From Rhodospirillaceae bacterium (GTDB taxonomy: Bacteria; Pseudomonadota; Alphaproteobacteria; CACIAM-22H2), in the NCBI GenBank assembly GCA_022843945.1, contig JALHMR010000005.1, positions 62,001 through 126,000 of the forward strand: a DNA stretch of 64,000 nt. Direction: 5' to 3'. The translations under genes and the position numbers were made by a program. The notes under the pieces are model-generated. The model made no database searches. It worked only from the letters and a program-made list of their open reading frames with translations, and was not told the origin of the DNA. Below, in pieces: positions 59,056 to 64,000 of this stretch. Numbering within the stretch: the stretch's first letter is position 1; every line of letters begins with the position of its first letter.

Positions 59056-59244
59056 ATGGGCAGCCCTGTGACCACCAGCCCCTGCATCGGCGTCTGCCGA
59101 CTCGACCCGGTCACCCAGGTCTGCGCCGGCTGCTTTCGCACCATCGGCGAAATCGTCGCCTGGCCCGACCTGCCAGAGGACGAGCGCCGAGCCATCGTGA
59201 CGCGGCTCAAGGCCTCGCAACTTCCCAAGCCGACTGACCCGTGA
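59056..59244 (+). CDS. DUF1289 protein, 62 aa
   Basis: Starts at an ATG and has the DUF1289 signature SPCIGVCRLDPVTQVCAGCFR, whose four cysteines probably hold an Fe-S cluster or zinc. Followed by GEIVAWPDL. Role unknown. The stop overlaps the GTG start of the TSUP gene, so the two are coupled. Confidence 0.85.
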   Translation: MGSPVTTSPCIGVCRLDPVTQVCAGCFRTIGEIVAWPDLPEDERRAIVTRLKASQLPKPTDP

Positions 59245-59978
59245 TCCCGCCCGACCTGTTTACGACCGAGCTGCTGATCGCCTTCGTTCTTGCCTTCGCC
59301 GGCGGAACGATCCGTGGCTACACCGGCTTCGGCACGCCGCTGTTCCTGGCGCCGATCTACGCCGTGCTGTTCGGCCCGCAGGCGACCGTGCCGCTGATGA
59401 TCCTGATAGAAGTCGGCATCGTGGTGCAGATGGTACCCAGCGCCCTCAAGCGCACCGACTGGCCGGAAATGCGTGGCTTGCTGCTCGGTTGTCTGCCGAT
59501 GCTGCCTGTGGGCGGCCTGATGCTGGGCGTCATCGATCCCGAACTGGGCAAGAAGATCATCGGTTTCGTGACCGGCGCGTTCGTCGCGGCGCTGTGGTGG
59601 GGCTGGCGCTATCGCGGCCCGCGCACGCTGCCGGTGCGCATCGCCGTCGGCGCGGTCAGCGGCTTCTCCAACGGCCTCACCGGCATCGGCGGCCCGCCGG
59701 TGATCCTCTACTACCTGTCCGGTGGCAAGGACATCGCCGCCATCCGGGCCAACCTGGTGATCTATTTTGCCTTCATCACGCTGGTCGCCGTGCCGTTCTT
59801 CGTCTATGCGGACCTGGTGACCGTCGAGACGCTGTGGCGCTGGCTGATCCTGACCCCGCCGCTGCTCATCGGTGTCGCTGCCGGCTCGCGCCTGTTCCAG
59901 CGCACGACCGAGCGTAGCTTCATCCGCGCAGCCCTGCTCACGCTGCTCGCTGCAGCTCTCGTCGGGATTTTCGGCTAG
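59241..59978 (+). CDS. TSUP/TauE-SafE family membrane exporter, 245 aa
   Basis: About 7-8 hydrophobic segments in two related halves. The conserved boxes are AGGTIRGYTGFGTPLF at the start and SGFSNGLTGIGGPPVILYYL in the second half, typical of TSUP anion permeases for sulfite, sulfoacetate or other organosulfonates. GTG start overlapping the DUF1289 stop. Its end overlaps the convergent PAS_5-like gene by 4 bp. Confidence 0.88.
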   Translation: MIPPDLFTTELLIAFVLAFAGGTIRGYTGFGTPLFLAPIYAVLFGPQATVPLMILIEVGIVVQMVPSALKRTDWPEMRGLLLGCLPMLPVGGLMLGVIDPELGKKIIGFVTGAFVAALWWGWRYRGPRTLPVRIAVGAVSGFSNGLTGIGGPPVILYYLSGGKDIAAIRANLVIYFAFITLVAVPFFVYADLVTVETLWRWLILTPPLLIGVAAGSRLFQRTTERSFIRAALLTLLAAALVGIFG

Positions 59979-60391
59979 CGCTGAGCGGCGTTGTCGTAGA
60001 GGGCCACCAGCAGCAGGCTGACCCCGCGCTGATCCCCGGCGAACGGCAGGACCAGGCCTTCCACGCCCAGGGCGGGCAGCGCACGTGCAGGAGTGGCCCC
60101 GAAGGCGGCCTGCCGGTAGGCAACCGAGAGGCCCTCCGAGGGCACCTCGATCCGGGCATTGGGACAGGGCACGAGCTCGAAAGCCCGGCCGCCGCCGACC
60201 ACCGCGACGCGCCGCACGCGGCCGAGCCACGGCTTGAGATTGAAGAACAGCAGATCGGCCTCGCTCGGCAGGGCACGCTGCCCGCGATGGGCCCGCCACC
60301 GGCCGAGAAGCGCACGCAACGCCGGATGCTCCAGCGCGAGGACCGGCTCGCAATCGAGGTCGACGGTGCGGGAAGCCGGCACGGCGATCAT
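59975..60391 (-). CDS. PAS_5-like protein, 138 aa
   Basis: Resembles the alphaproteobacterial PAS_5 family: an N-terminal ALRALLGRWRAHRGQ helix, LPSEADLLFFNLKPWLGRV and a beta-rich remainder. Role unknown, probably sensory. It is the last gene of a three-gene operon with 2-bp spacing and stop-start coupling. Confidence 0.6.
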   Translation of the reverse strand: MIAVPASRTVDLDCEPVLALEHPALRALLGRWRAHRGQRALPSEADLLFFNLKPWLGRVRRVAVVGGGRAFELVPCPNARIEVPSEGLSVAYRQAAFGATPARALPALGVEGLVLPFAGDQRGVSLLLVALYDNAAQR

Positions 60392-60393
60392 GG

Positions 60394-61188
60394 CTACTCG
60401 GCCGCTCCACCCAGGCGGAAGATCGGCGATCGTGCCCCGGCGGCCCGGATCGCCGCATCAGTCGGCAGGCAGAGCGGCTGGCTCATATCCGCGTAAGACC
60501 GATCGACAATCACGCCGCGATAGAAGGAGCGCGGCGCCAGGAGCAGCCAGTACCAGCGGCCAAAGCGGGCGATGCCCGTCTCGGCCATGGGAAAACCGTA
60601 GACGTCGTTGGCATAGGCCCGGACCTGAGCCTTCTCCGCCAGACCGACGATCCAGCTCCAGCGCCAGTGCACGGCGACCCAGAGATGGAGTAGCCGCATC
60701 ATGGCGCGCACCACGTCGGACGATTCGCCTTGCTGCACGAAGGCGGCACCGGTCAGCGCCACGGAGCAGTCTGCGATCGACCAGGCACTGGGCGCCGTGC
60801 AGACGACCGTCTCGTCCGGCGAGGCCATCGTCGGAACGTCGCGATAGAAGAAGCGCAAGGACTGGAACGCCTCGCCCAGAGTGTCCTCGATCCAGAACAG
60901 GCGGGTGCCGGCACAAGCGACGGGCTCCCCGTCCCGTTCCATGGTGATCACCACGGCATTGGAGGGATCGTAGTCCTGGTATTCCGGGTTGAACGGCTGG
61001 AACAGCCGCATGCGATTGGCGTTTCGTCGCTGGATATCCGCCACCGTTCGCAGGTCGTGACTGATGCGAGGCGTCAGATTGTGCCGATGGATCGCTTCGA
61101 CCAGCGCCGGCACAGTGACCCCGGCGATCGTCTGCCGGGAGGAAGCCGGCAGCCAGCTCGCATCGAAGTGATCCATGTAATGGGTCAC
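60394..61188 (-). CDS. GNAT-like protein of unknown function, 264 aa
   Basis: No family firmly recognised. A GNAT-type architecture is suggested by the N-terminal RNANRMRLFQPFNPEYQD, a beta-strand pair (NAVVITMERDGEPVACAG) and the late VRAYANDVYGFPM, which looks like the closing segment of acetyltransferases. The GTG start at 61188 overlaps the stop of the HTH gene; an internal ATG at 61176 is the alternative. An acyltransferase role, perhaps making a signal molecule, is conceivable but unproven. Confidence 0.6.
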   Translation of the reverse strand: MTHYMDHFDASWLPASSRQTIAGVTVPALVEAIHRHNLTPRISHDLRTVADIQRRNANRMRLFQPFNPEYQDYDPSNAVVITMERDGEPVACAGTRLFWIEDTLGEAFQSLRFFYRDVPTMASPDETVVCTAPSAWSIADCSVALTGAAFVQQGESSDVVRAMMRLLHLWVAVHWRWSWIVGLAEKAQVRAYANDVYGFPMAETGIARFGRWYWLLLAPRSFYRGVIVDRSYADMSQPLCLPTDAAIRAAGARSPIFRLGGAAE

Positions 61189-62267
61189 GTCGTCCCGGGG
61201 TCAAGGAGCTGGACCGTGGTCATCACCATCTGCCGGTCGCCGGCATTGAACGGCAGTGCCACGCGGCGATAGCGACGTCGACGGCCGGCGATGTCGATCT
61301 CCAGGTGATAGAAGGTCGGCCCCTCCTTCACGCATTCGGTCATGTGCTGATAGACCAGCGCCGCGTAGCGCGGGTCGTCCCGGTCGAGCACGTTGCGGTA
61401 GGCGAAGCGATCGATGGGCAATCCGAGATCGGTGCCGATATAGAGACTGACGACCTCCGCCTCCCCTTTGATCCACAACAGCGACGAGGTGCCCATTCGG
61501 CCCGCGCGCACGCACGCAGCCATGGGATCCTCTGACGGCGCGAGCGTGGTCAGGAAACGTTGGAACTCCGCCTGTCCGTCGCTGTCCGGACGTTCGCGTT
61601 GGACGGTCCAGTTGGCTTCGCCCAGGGTCTGCCGCAAGGTTACCCGCACGGCCCAGCGATCGAGGAACCGCACGGCTTCCGAGACCGAGAAAATCGTGGC
61701 CTCGCCCCAGCCATCCGGCCCGAGAGCCAGGGCCCGAACCTCGGCGATCGCGCGACCATCGGTCAGCAGCCAGTCGCGCAGCCGGCGCGCCGCCTGGGGA
61801 TCCAGGGTCTTGGAGGCGTAGCGGATCTCGAGGCGGCGATCGGCGCGGACGAGGCAGGCGACCCAGCCGAGATTGGCGACGGTGTAACGCACCACATCCT
61901 GCTCGACCCCGGCCGTCAGCCCGAGCGCCGTGCGGGCGAACAGGGCGTGGCCGGCCGGCGCCTGATGCACCGCTCCCTCGGTGATCCACAGGCAGAGGTC
62001 GTCGGTCCGCGGCGTTGGATCGAGCCGCTCGAGATCGAGCACCTCGCGCAGGAAATTGCTGTCTTTGTGATAACGGATGAAGTAGCGGTCCACGTCTTCA
62101 GCGGCCCCGGCATACACCCGATGATCGCCGCGCAGCCAGCGTTGCAGCGTGTCTTCCGAGTATCCGAGCTCGTGGGCCATCTGTTTCACGCGAAGCGCCG
62201 TATGGGGGAATAGCCTGCGGCGAAGTGCCGCAGCGAAGCGCTGTTCGAATGAAACAGACGATGTCAT
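61185..62267 (-). CDS. HTH regulator with a PAS_5-like C-terminus, 360 aa
   Basis: An N-terminal helix-turn-helix (about residues 20-55, LRVKQMAHELGYSEDTLQRWLRG) of XRE-like form, a mixed middle domain and a C-terminal sensor-like part (YHLEIDIAGRRRRYRRVALPF) resembling PAS_5. First gene of the operon, so it may control the other two. The 180 bp upstream contains a TTAACCA/TGGTAAA palindrome. The signal is unknown. Confidence 0.65.
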   Translation of the reverse strand: MTSSVSFEQRFAAALRRRLFPHTALRVKQMAHELGYSEDTLQRWLRGDHRVYAGAAEDVDRYFIRYHKDSNFLREVLDLERLDPTPRTDDLCLWITEGAVHQAPAGHALFARTALGLTAGVEQDVVRYTVANLGWVACLVRADRRLEIRYASKTLDPQAARRLRDWLLTDGRAIAEVRALALGPDGWGEATIFSVSEAVRFLDRWAVRVTLRQTLGEANWTVQRERPDSDGQAEFQRFLTTLAPSEDPMAACVRAGRMGTSSLLWIKGEAEVVSLYIGTDLGLPIDRFAYRNVLDRDDPRYAALVYQHMTECVKEGPTFYHLEIDIAGRRRRYRRVALPFNAGDRQMVMTTVQLLDPGTT

Positions 62268-62446
62268 GACGACCCCCGCACGTCTGCGGTTCCGGCCCGC
62301 ACGTTCGCGGCTTTTCCGCCCGAGCGGGACGGTCCCTGTCCGTTAACGCGGTAACAGCAGAACACGCGGGACAAGCTTCGCACGCGTCCTGCCGGCCGGC
62401 AAACGGCACCCGTCACACCCGATTAACCATTTGGTAAATGGCCGAG

Positions 62447-64000
62447 CTAGCGGCTTTCACGCGGGGTGAAGCTACGCGCCGAAAGGTACTGGTTGGGCCA
62501 GGGCAGATCGTAGCCCTGCTCGTAGGCGGCGTGGCGCGTCCAGTAGGGGTCGAAAAGGTGACCGCGGGCGAGCACGCACAGGTCCGCCCGCCCTGCGGCC
62601 AGGATGGCGTTGACGTCGGCCCAGGAGGAAATATTGCCGACCGTCATGGTCGGCATGTCGGCCTCATTGCGCACGCGATCGGCAAACGGCGTCTGGAACA
62701 GCCGGCCGTACTGTGGCCGGGCGTCGGGCGTGGTCTGGCCCGCGGATACATCGAGGATATCGCAGCCGGCCGCCTTGAACAGGCGGGCGACCACCACCGC
62801 GTCGTCGGGTGTAAAGCCCCCCTCCTGCCAATCGGTCGCCGACAGGCGCACCGACAGGGGCTTGTGCGCCGGCCAGGCGGCGCGCACCGCCAGGAGCACT
62901 TCAAGGGGATACCGTGCCCGGCTCTCCAGCGTCCCGCCGTATTCGTCGCCGCGCCGATTGGTCAGAGGCGAGAGAAACGTGGCCAGCAGGTAGCCATGAG
63001 CGCAGTGCAGTTCGAGAAGATCGAATCCGGCCTCGTCGGCCATCCGGGTCGCACGGACAAAGTCGTCACGCACCCGGTCCATATCCTGGCGGTCCATGGC
63101 CTTGGGCACCTGCGAGTGCGGCAGGTAAGGGATCGCTGAGGCGGCGACAATCGGCCAATTGCCGTCGGGCAGCGGCTCGTCGATCCCTTCCCAGGCAAGC
63201 CGGGTCGATCCCTTGCGCCCGGCATGGGCGAGCTGGATGCCGATCTTGGCCGGGCTGTTGGCGTGCACGAAATCGACCACCCGCTTCCAGGCGCTGACAT
63301 GCTCGGGCTTGTACAGGCCTGTGCAGCCCGGCGTGATGCGTGCCTCGCGGCTGACATCGGTCATCTCGGCAATCACCAGGCCAGCCCCGCCCATCGCCCG
63401 GCTGCCGAGATGGACGAGGTGCCAGTCGTTGGGCATGCCGTCTTCGGCCGAGTACTGGCACATCGGCGAAACCACCACGCGATTGGCCAGCACTAGGTCG
63501 CGCAGCCGGAACGGCGTGAACATCGGCGGCGGGGCCGGCTCGACCGGCACGTTGACTCCAGACTGGTTCGCCGCGTGTCCGGCAAACCAGCGATCCACGC
63601 GCCCGGTAAACGCCGGATCGCGCAGCTTCAAATTGGCATGGTGGATGCGCAGGGACCGGGTCAGCATCGAATAGGCGAACTGCAGCGGCTCCATGCGGCC
63701 GAAGTAGCGCTCGGTCTCCTCGAACCATTGCAGGCTGACCTGGGCCGCGCGCTGGGTCGCCTCCACCACCGGCCGGCGCTCGGCTTCATAGGCATCGAGC
63801 GCTTCTTCCACGCTCTTGTGTTTCTGCAGGGCCAGGGCGAGCGCCGCCGAATCTTCCATGGCGAGCTTGGTGCCGGAGCCGATCGAAAAATGCGCCGTAT
63901 GCACGGCATCGCCCATCAGGACGATGTTCTCGTGATGCCAGTGCCTGTTGCGGATCGTCGGAAAGGTCCGCCACAGCGAGCGGTTCTTGAGCAGGCGATG
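62447..64000 (-). CDS. Bifunctional salicylyl-CoA 5-hydroxylase/oxidoreductase, C-terminal part
   Basis: Partial: the frame is open to the right edge and covers 517 residues. The start of the fragment is the FAD-monooxygenase end ([33 protein letters not shown]). From about residue 158 an Old Yellow Enzyme domain follows ([47 protein letters not shown]). Such fusions hydroxylate salicylyl-CoA on the gentisate route. An ATG-based call at 63916 would cut off sequence that belongs to the protein. Confidence 0.9.

Follow-up and report, generated by a model that had tools for sequence, protein, structure and literature searches.

Conserved pairing of genes for a predicted PAS-fold sensor and a predicted GNAT-fold protein in Alphaproteobacteria

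Many Alphaproteobacteria possess a gene for a sensor-like regulator next to a gene for a protein of predicted GNAT fold, and this pairing is conserved beyond what chance adjacency would give. We describe it from the stretch of 64,000 nt of Rhodospirillaceae DNA that was analysed here (in the following, the window). Tentatively, and at somewhat less than an even chance, we read regulator and GNAT-fold protein as a dedicated enzyme-sensor unit: the ligand of the sensor would be the product or the substrate of the GNAT-fold protein.

Gene layout and predicted folds in the window

The three coupled genes that a first-pass annotation had described are indeed present, all on the minus strand. The regulator gene (62267-61185, 360 aa) shares a stop/start overlap of 4 nt (61185..61188) with the gene of the GNAT-fold protein (61188-60394, 264 aa, GTG start), which is followed after a gap of 2 nt by a small third gene (60391-59975, 138 aa). 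A convergent TauE-type gene (59241-59978) overlaps the end of the third gene by 4 nt. The GC content at codon positions 1/2/3 fits a coding-type composition in the regulator (0.70/0.48/0.80), the GNAT gene (0.65/0.50/0.82) and the third gene (0.81/0.51/0.86).

The middle protein matched no Pfam or NCBIfam model. Structure prediction of its 264 residues, which had been proposed as a check of its GNAT-like nature, yielded a GNAT fold and not another one: the best Foldseek matches of the AlphaFold2 model (six-row alignment; pTM 0.64, mean pLDDT 63) are GNAT enzymes, and most of the structures listed carry titles of GNAT-type acetyltransferases or of complexes containing one (best Z 11.6). By this model the protein has the predicted fold of the GNAT superfamily. 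The top rows are aminoglycoside acetyltransferases; protein N-terminal acetyltransferases and 7byy, titled 'bacterial toxin' (Z 10.8), also occur. Also among the matches are FeeM (2g0b; Z 10.9, rmsd 3.8) and two AHL synthases, LasI and BjaI; they score level with many further GNATs and speak for the fold that the protein would adopt, not for its function. Neither LuxR nor LuxI structures stood out from the remaining matches. At the level of profiles, the alignment of the window's own branch matched that of the wider GNAT family with 99.7% probability, and a profile search of PDB sequences gave one match at chance level. Scans of genomic and viral contigs with the single GNAT protein as query returned zero relatives; similarly, it matched nothing in a plasmid collection, in which a relative used as query did find matches.

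The regulator bears out the earlier description of an N-terminal HTH and a sensor-like end. Its HTH region (62031..62243, minus strand, residues about 9-79) matches HTH_31 below the Pfam cut-off (E 2.4e-4) and the profile of its relatives' HTH region at E 7e-5. The middle domain (61584..61970, minus strand, about residues 100-228, boundaries approximate) falls into no named family; an NLG(W/F/Y)V-like stretch recurs in it. For the C-terminal domain (61209..61529, minus strand, residues 247-353) Pfam gave no PAS match; a PAS profile matches it at E 1e-21, and the AlphaFold2 model of residues 85-360, of modest confidence (pTM 0.43), finds PAS domains as its best Foldseek matches, so that a PAS fold is predicted at this end of the chain. 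Many Alphaproteobacteria carry the same sensor part without an HTH of the window's type, and neither PAS_5 nor any other Pfam model recognized the seven full-length sensor forms that were tested.

Upstream of the regulator lies a tandem 15-bp repeat (8-43 nt from the start), which was reached by 2 of 60 shuffles and which we regard as a weak candidate for an operator. Its first copy (62275..62289, 8 nt upstream) is near palindromic, and the second (62296..62310) follows at a distance of 21 bp. A genome-wide search found fewer such sites (31) than its backward control (40), and therefore no regulon. Direct repeats upstream of 14 other genes of the HTH branch are mostly within shuffle range, their start codons being uncertain; the exceptions are loci L035 (0/60 shuffles) and L031 (5/60).

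The third gene has to be separated from this pair. That its product is PAS_5-like, as had been suggested, stands in so far as its BLAST relatives match PAS and sensor profiles; the protein itself matches none of these at E 1, and its hit to PF07310 is below threshold (E 0.15 over 27 residues; 12.4 bits against a cut-off of 22). The curated PAS_5 cut-off is likewise not passed by the C-terminus of the regulator. A PAS_5 nature of the third protein would thus depend on transitive similarity, and it is the weakest part of the observation. In 26 GNAT loci, tblastn with the third protein gave no match at E 1e-3, and its matches in the search of the window's order included no GNAT locus other than the window's. 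A conserved three-gene unit, as first proposed, was consequently rejected: the synteny extends to regulator and GNAT gene, whereas the third gene is local.

Recurrence of the pair among Alphaproteobacteria

A profile of 25 GNAT relatives found the protein in 43 of the 385 genomes that made up an alphaproteobacterial sample, and a wider profile of the family (A9) in 10 of 299 genomes of a phylum sample, all ten of them Alphaproteobacteria. Linkage was studied in 69 GNAT genes, of which 55 came from the 385-genome search with its 67 rows besides the window's (G301:C92, G117:C1, G307, G215, G398:754364, G277, G149, G117:C5, G392:C27, G350, G057 and G399:923205 are the 12 rows left out) and 14 from the order search. 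A sensor or PAS gene lies within 700 nt of the GNAT gene in 57 of these 69 cases, and none in 12. The sensor carries an HTH and lies upstream on the same strand, as in the window, in 16 of the 57 linked genes; in 36 a sensor lacking the window-type HTH is convergent to the GNAT gene, and four further sensors lie downstream and one upstream without the HTH. Among the convergent pairs the ends of the reading frames overlap in 23 of 36, by 16 to 215 nt.

Such frequencies are to be compared with the background of PAS genes. Elsewhere in the same loci only six PAS-like matches occur in 644 kb, a control density drawn from the very loci that served for the sensor profiles, the latter starting from HTH-branch proteins and being iterated only on the reading frames of the fetched loci. 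PAS_5 genes number 0-44 matches per genome (16 genomes), and our own arithmetic from this frequency gives a chance adjacency of about 1-2%.

Viewed from the sensor, the association is also close. The draw of 385 genomes contains 32 full-length sensors, i.e. those spanning the model from position 22 or before to position 190 or beyond (partial and PAS-only rows being excluded); 22 of them adjoin a GNAT gene, one is a tandem copy situated 1.3 kb away beside a sensor-GNAT pair, and nine are solo. Profile checks of seven solo sensors, reaching out to 1.5 kb or as far as the fetched sequence went, found no GNAT gene nearby (G354:C5 and G294:C69 are the two outside this check). The window's own genome harbours a second, convergent pair (G000:C16, L099), and plasmid-borne pairs occur in Azospirillum and Roseibium. 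Both genes of these plasmid pairs are annotated as hypothetical proteins only. At four of six plasmid GNAT loci examined, all four rhizobial, the sensor is missing. The GNAT relative of pNGR234a adjoins a gene whose product contains an L-amino acid ligase domain and that of a Roseibium plasmid adjoins aminotransferases, neighbours which hint at amino-acid-like chemistry.

Within its order the window's GNAT protein was matched in 12 of 23 genomes, and it is absent from the sole other genome of the window's genus. The HTH branch comprises the window and 16 relatives and is, among the fetched loci, confined to the window's own family. The genes flanking five of its loci vary from locus to locus, so that a shared target is not visible.

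The trees of GNAT proteins and sensors agree (57 pairs including the window, r 0.81, a value reached in 0 of 999 permutations), in a correlation that still includes shared species history. In genomes with more than one locus, a GNAT protein fits its own sensor better than that of the other locus in 16 of 18 comparisons, several with margins near zero and not independent of each other.

Relation to known systems

The likeness to LuxI/LuxR is one of arrangement. Here as there, the gene of a GNAT-fold enzyme adjoins a regulator gene, solo receptors occur, and the convergent overlapping layout resembles that of luxR/luxI. By contrast, the sensor is a PAS protein with or without an N-terminal HTH, the regulator having neither an autoinducer-binding domain nor a C-terminal GerE HTH in Pfam, and the window's genome has no match to PF00765 (LuxI), with which family the GNAT protein shares only a weak profile similarity (probability 11). 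The families do not match LuxI/LuxR, just as the first-pass annotation held, and membership was rejected. FeeM (PF21926) has the GNAT fold and, among the structural matches listed, the longest alignment (159 residues); its model, however, does not match the window protein and finds one of the 25 relatives at E 0.058, the hhalign profile comparison is weak (probability 29), and membership by sequence was rejected too. PADLOC gave just a chance-level match to Cas8c (E 0.065), and a known anti-phage defence gene was dismissed.

Comparable in domain content is VqmA, the PAS-HTH quorum receptor for DPO, which likewise joins PAS and HTH in one chain and whose structures align with the sensor PAS domain (6ugl_A, Z 9.5, rmsd 3.0, 102 aligned; 6ide_B, Z 9.2). 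In VqmA, however, the HTH occupies the opposite end of the chain, the enzyme producing the ligand is unlinked to the receptor gene, and the Z scores are tied with those of many unrelated PAS domains. Four of seven shorter adjacent partners tested pass the PF07310 cut-off as PAS_5 proteins, which relates them to MopJ/PAS_5, and one matches MopJ (NF051868) at 51 bits, below the model cut-off of 200; the full-length sensors differ by their extra middle domain. In the open-licence literature we found no paper joining PAS_5 with GNAT and nothing on the regulator-GNAT pair: passages of the MopJ paper (PMC4432633) mention neither acetyltransferase nor GNAT, and PMC7862692 concerns a LuxI homologue. 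For the R2 topology of luxR/luxI, a published survey (PMC3386692) gives overlaps of 2-79 bp.

The layout of an acyltransferase beside its own regulator had been likened to synthase-receptor systems. This analogy gains from the conserved pairing and from the convergent, luxR/luxI-like topology found elsewhere; the three-gene unit of the proposal did not hold, and a signal made by the GNAT protein is conjectural.

Possible functions of the pair

In the enzyme-sensor unit that we tentatively prefer, the GNAT-fold enzyme would acylate a small amine- or amino-acid-like molecule or, in the HTH branch, perhaps merely bind it, and the dedicated PAS sensor would bind the product or the substrate. Where the sensor bears an HTH, as in the window's branch, ligand binding would alter transcription, probably including that of its own operon. 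The partner present in most other Alphaproteobacteria, encoded on the opposite strand and transcribed towards the GNAT gene, lacks the window-type HTH, and its output must therefore proceed via another protein. The ligand might be either exported, as in quorum sensing, or kept inside as in metabolic feedback; cell-to-cell signalling by the pair is possible. This reading draws on the recurrent linkage seen from both genes, the agreement of the trees, the convergent layout with overlapping ends and the structural matches to FeeM, LasI and BjaI on the GNAT side and to VqmA on the sensor side, tied as these matches are with many other proteins. Several observations point against an enzyme-sensor unit, namely the CoA loop (0/17 in the HTH branch, see below), the GNAT genes without a sensor within 700 nt (12/69), the four of six plasmid loci without one, the genus-mate genome devoid of the GNAT, the weak FeeM (29) and LuxI (11) probabilities and the lack of a wider operator set.

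GNATs are frequently detoxifying enzymes, and the ligand could be of metabolic interest only. The GNAT protein would then modify or detoxify a metabolite whose presence the PAS regulator senses as the enzyme's substrate, controlling nothing beyond its own operon. The small autonomous operon with neighbours varying between loci, the failure to find a wider operator set genome-wide and the aminoglycoside acetyltransferases at the top of the Foldseek rows are in line with such plain feedback, which we consider unlikely, though still a serious contender, as full-length sensors without HTH and solo sensors imply outputs beyond one operon and the wide conservation of the pair speaks for more than a local detoxifier.

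A different question is raised by the CoA-binding loop. The motif (R/Q)xxGx is absent from the window's GNAT protein and from all 16 of its HTH-branch relatives (0/17), whereas 35 of 53 GNATs outside this branch retain it under the strict pattern, in a test that concerns a sequence motif and says nothing on activity. With the motif lost, the window's protein would either use another donor or have turned into a non-catalytic partner, and this loss in the window's branch warns against assuming a signal. The GNAT protein of the HTH branch may accordingly have become a pseudo-enzyme, i.e. a regulatory subunit or anti-regulator binding the HTH-PAS protein directly. Besides the lost motif, the paired trees would suit this reading, as would the 4-nt overlap in the window, which favours co-translation of a complex. 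We nevertheless judge it fairly improbable: residues R96, L104, R165, W175, D195, G198, R208 and R220 are invariant in the HTH branch, as expected for a conserved active or binding site, and GNAT-fold enzymes that use acyl-ACP, such as LuxI, manage without the canonical loop.

Alternatively, the GNAT protein could modify its PAS partner or another protein, with the PAS domain sensing an unrelated cue such as redox state or light. PAS folds frequently bind cofactors, and protein N-terminal acetyltransferases are among the fold matches; the loss of the CoA loop, however, speaks against the use of acetyl-CoA in the HTH branch, and we give this explanation little credence. Least credible, and by a wide measure improbable, is a toxin-antitoxin system, in which the upstream HTH protein would be the antitoxin and the GNAT protein a toxin acetylating aminoacyl-tRNA. 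The overlap of the HTH gene with the downstream GNAT gene, the repeats just upstream and the toxin structure 7byy among the fold matches would suit it. Against it, the HTH gene encodes a PAS sensor of 360 aa, the majority of relatives lie convergent to a sensor gene without the HTH, the CoA-loop motif is lost and PADLOC gave no notable match.

If, in contrast, the enzyme-sensor unit is taken at its widest, the pairs could represent a widespread, undescribed alphaproteobacterial signalling family of GNAT synthase and PAS receptor, which would have originated independently of LuxI/LuxR, arrived at the same layouts, namely convergent pairs with overlapping ends and receptors that stand alone, and, in one lineage, fused the receptor with an HTH into a one-component transcriptional circuit. 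We hold this extended proposal to be rather doubtful. A synthase-receptor system would add a signalling family whose GNAT is present in 43 of the 385 alphaproteobacterial genomes sampled; if the protein is instead a pseudo-enzyme regulator, it would provide a clean example of a GNAT converted to a regulatory subunit. The same sensor with an HTH in the window's branch, and without it in most others, offers a natural comparison of outputs.

GNAT/sensor pairs and PAS_5 numbers

The genome from which the window derives (G000) carries a second pair of genes encoding a GNAT-fold protein and a PAS sensor, which are convergent and located on contig C16 (locus L099, 6448-8392); the sensor is devoid of an HTH, and the GNAT retains the CoA-loop motif. 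PAS_5 (PF07310) is strongly expanded in this genome and in the sampled genome G224, with 28 and 44 matches, respectively.

At loci L120 and L127 GNAT relatives are duplicated in tandem, with no PAS partner nearby, and at L049 (G078:C18) and on contig G149:C359 at least two sensor copies lie close to a single GNAT.

An ORF upstream of the window regulator

The ORF at 62447-64000 (-), which is open at the window edge, contains a full NADH:flavin oxidoreductase domain linked to the end of a FAD_binding_3 domain (Pfam), a fused monooxygenase-oxidoreductase.

Plasmid-borne relatives and their neighbours

On pNGR234a (L136, 4974-7104) the gene for a GNAT relative shares 56 nt with one for an ATP-grasp protein that has an L-amino acid ligase C-terminal domain. 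In a Roseibium aggregatum plasmid (L175, 11971-23647) a GNAT/sensor pair is adjoined by a run of genes, all on one strand, for aminotransferases, kinases, a GMC oxidoreductase and an MFS transporter, which resembles a biosynthetic cluster.
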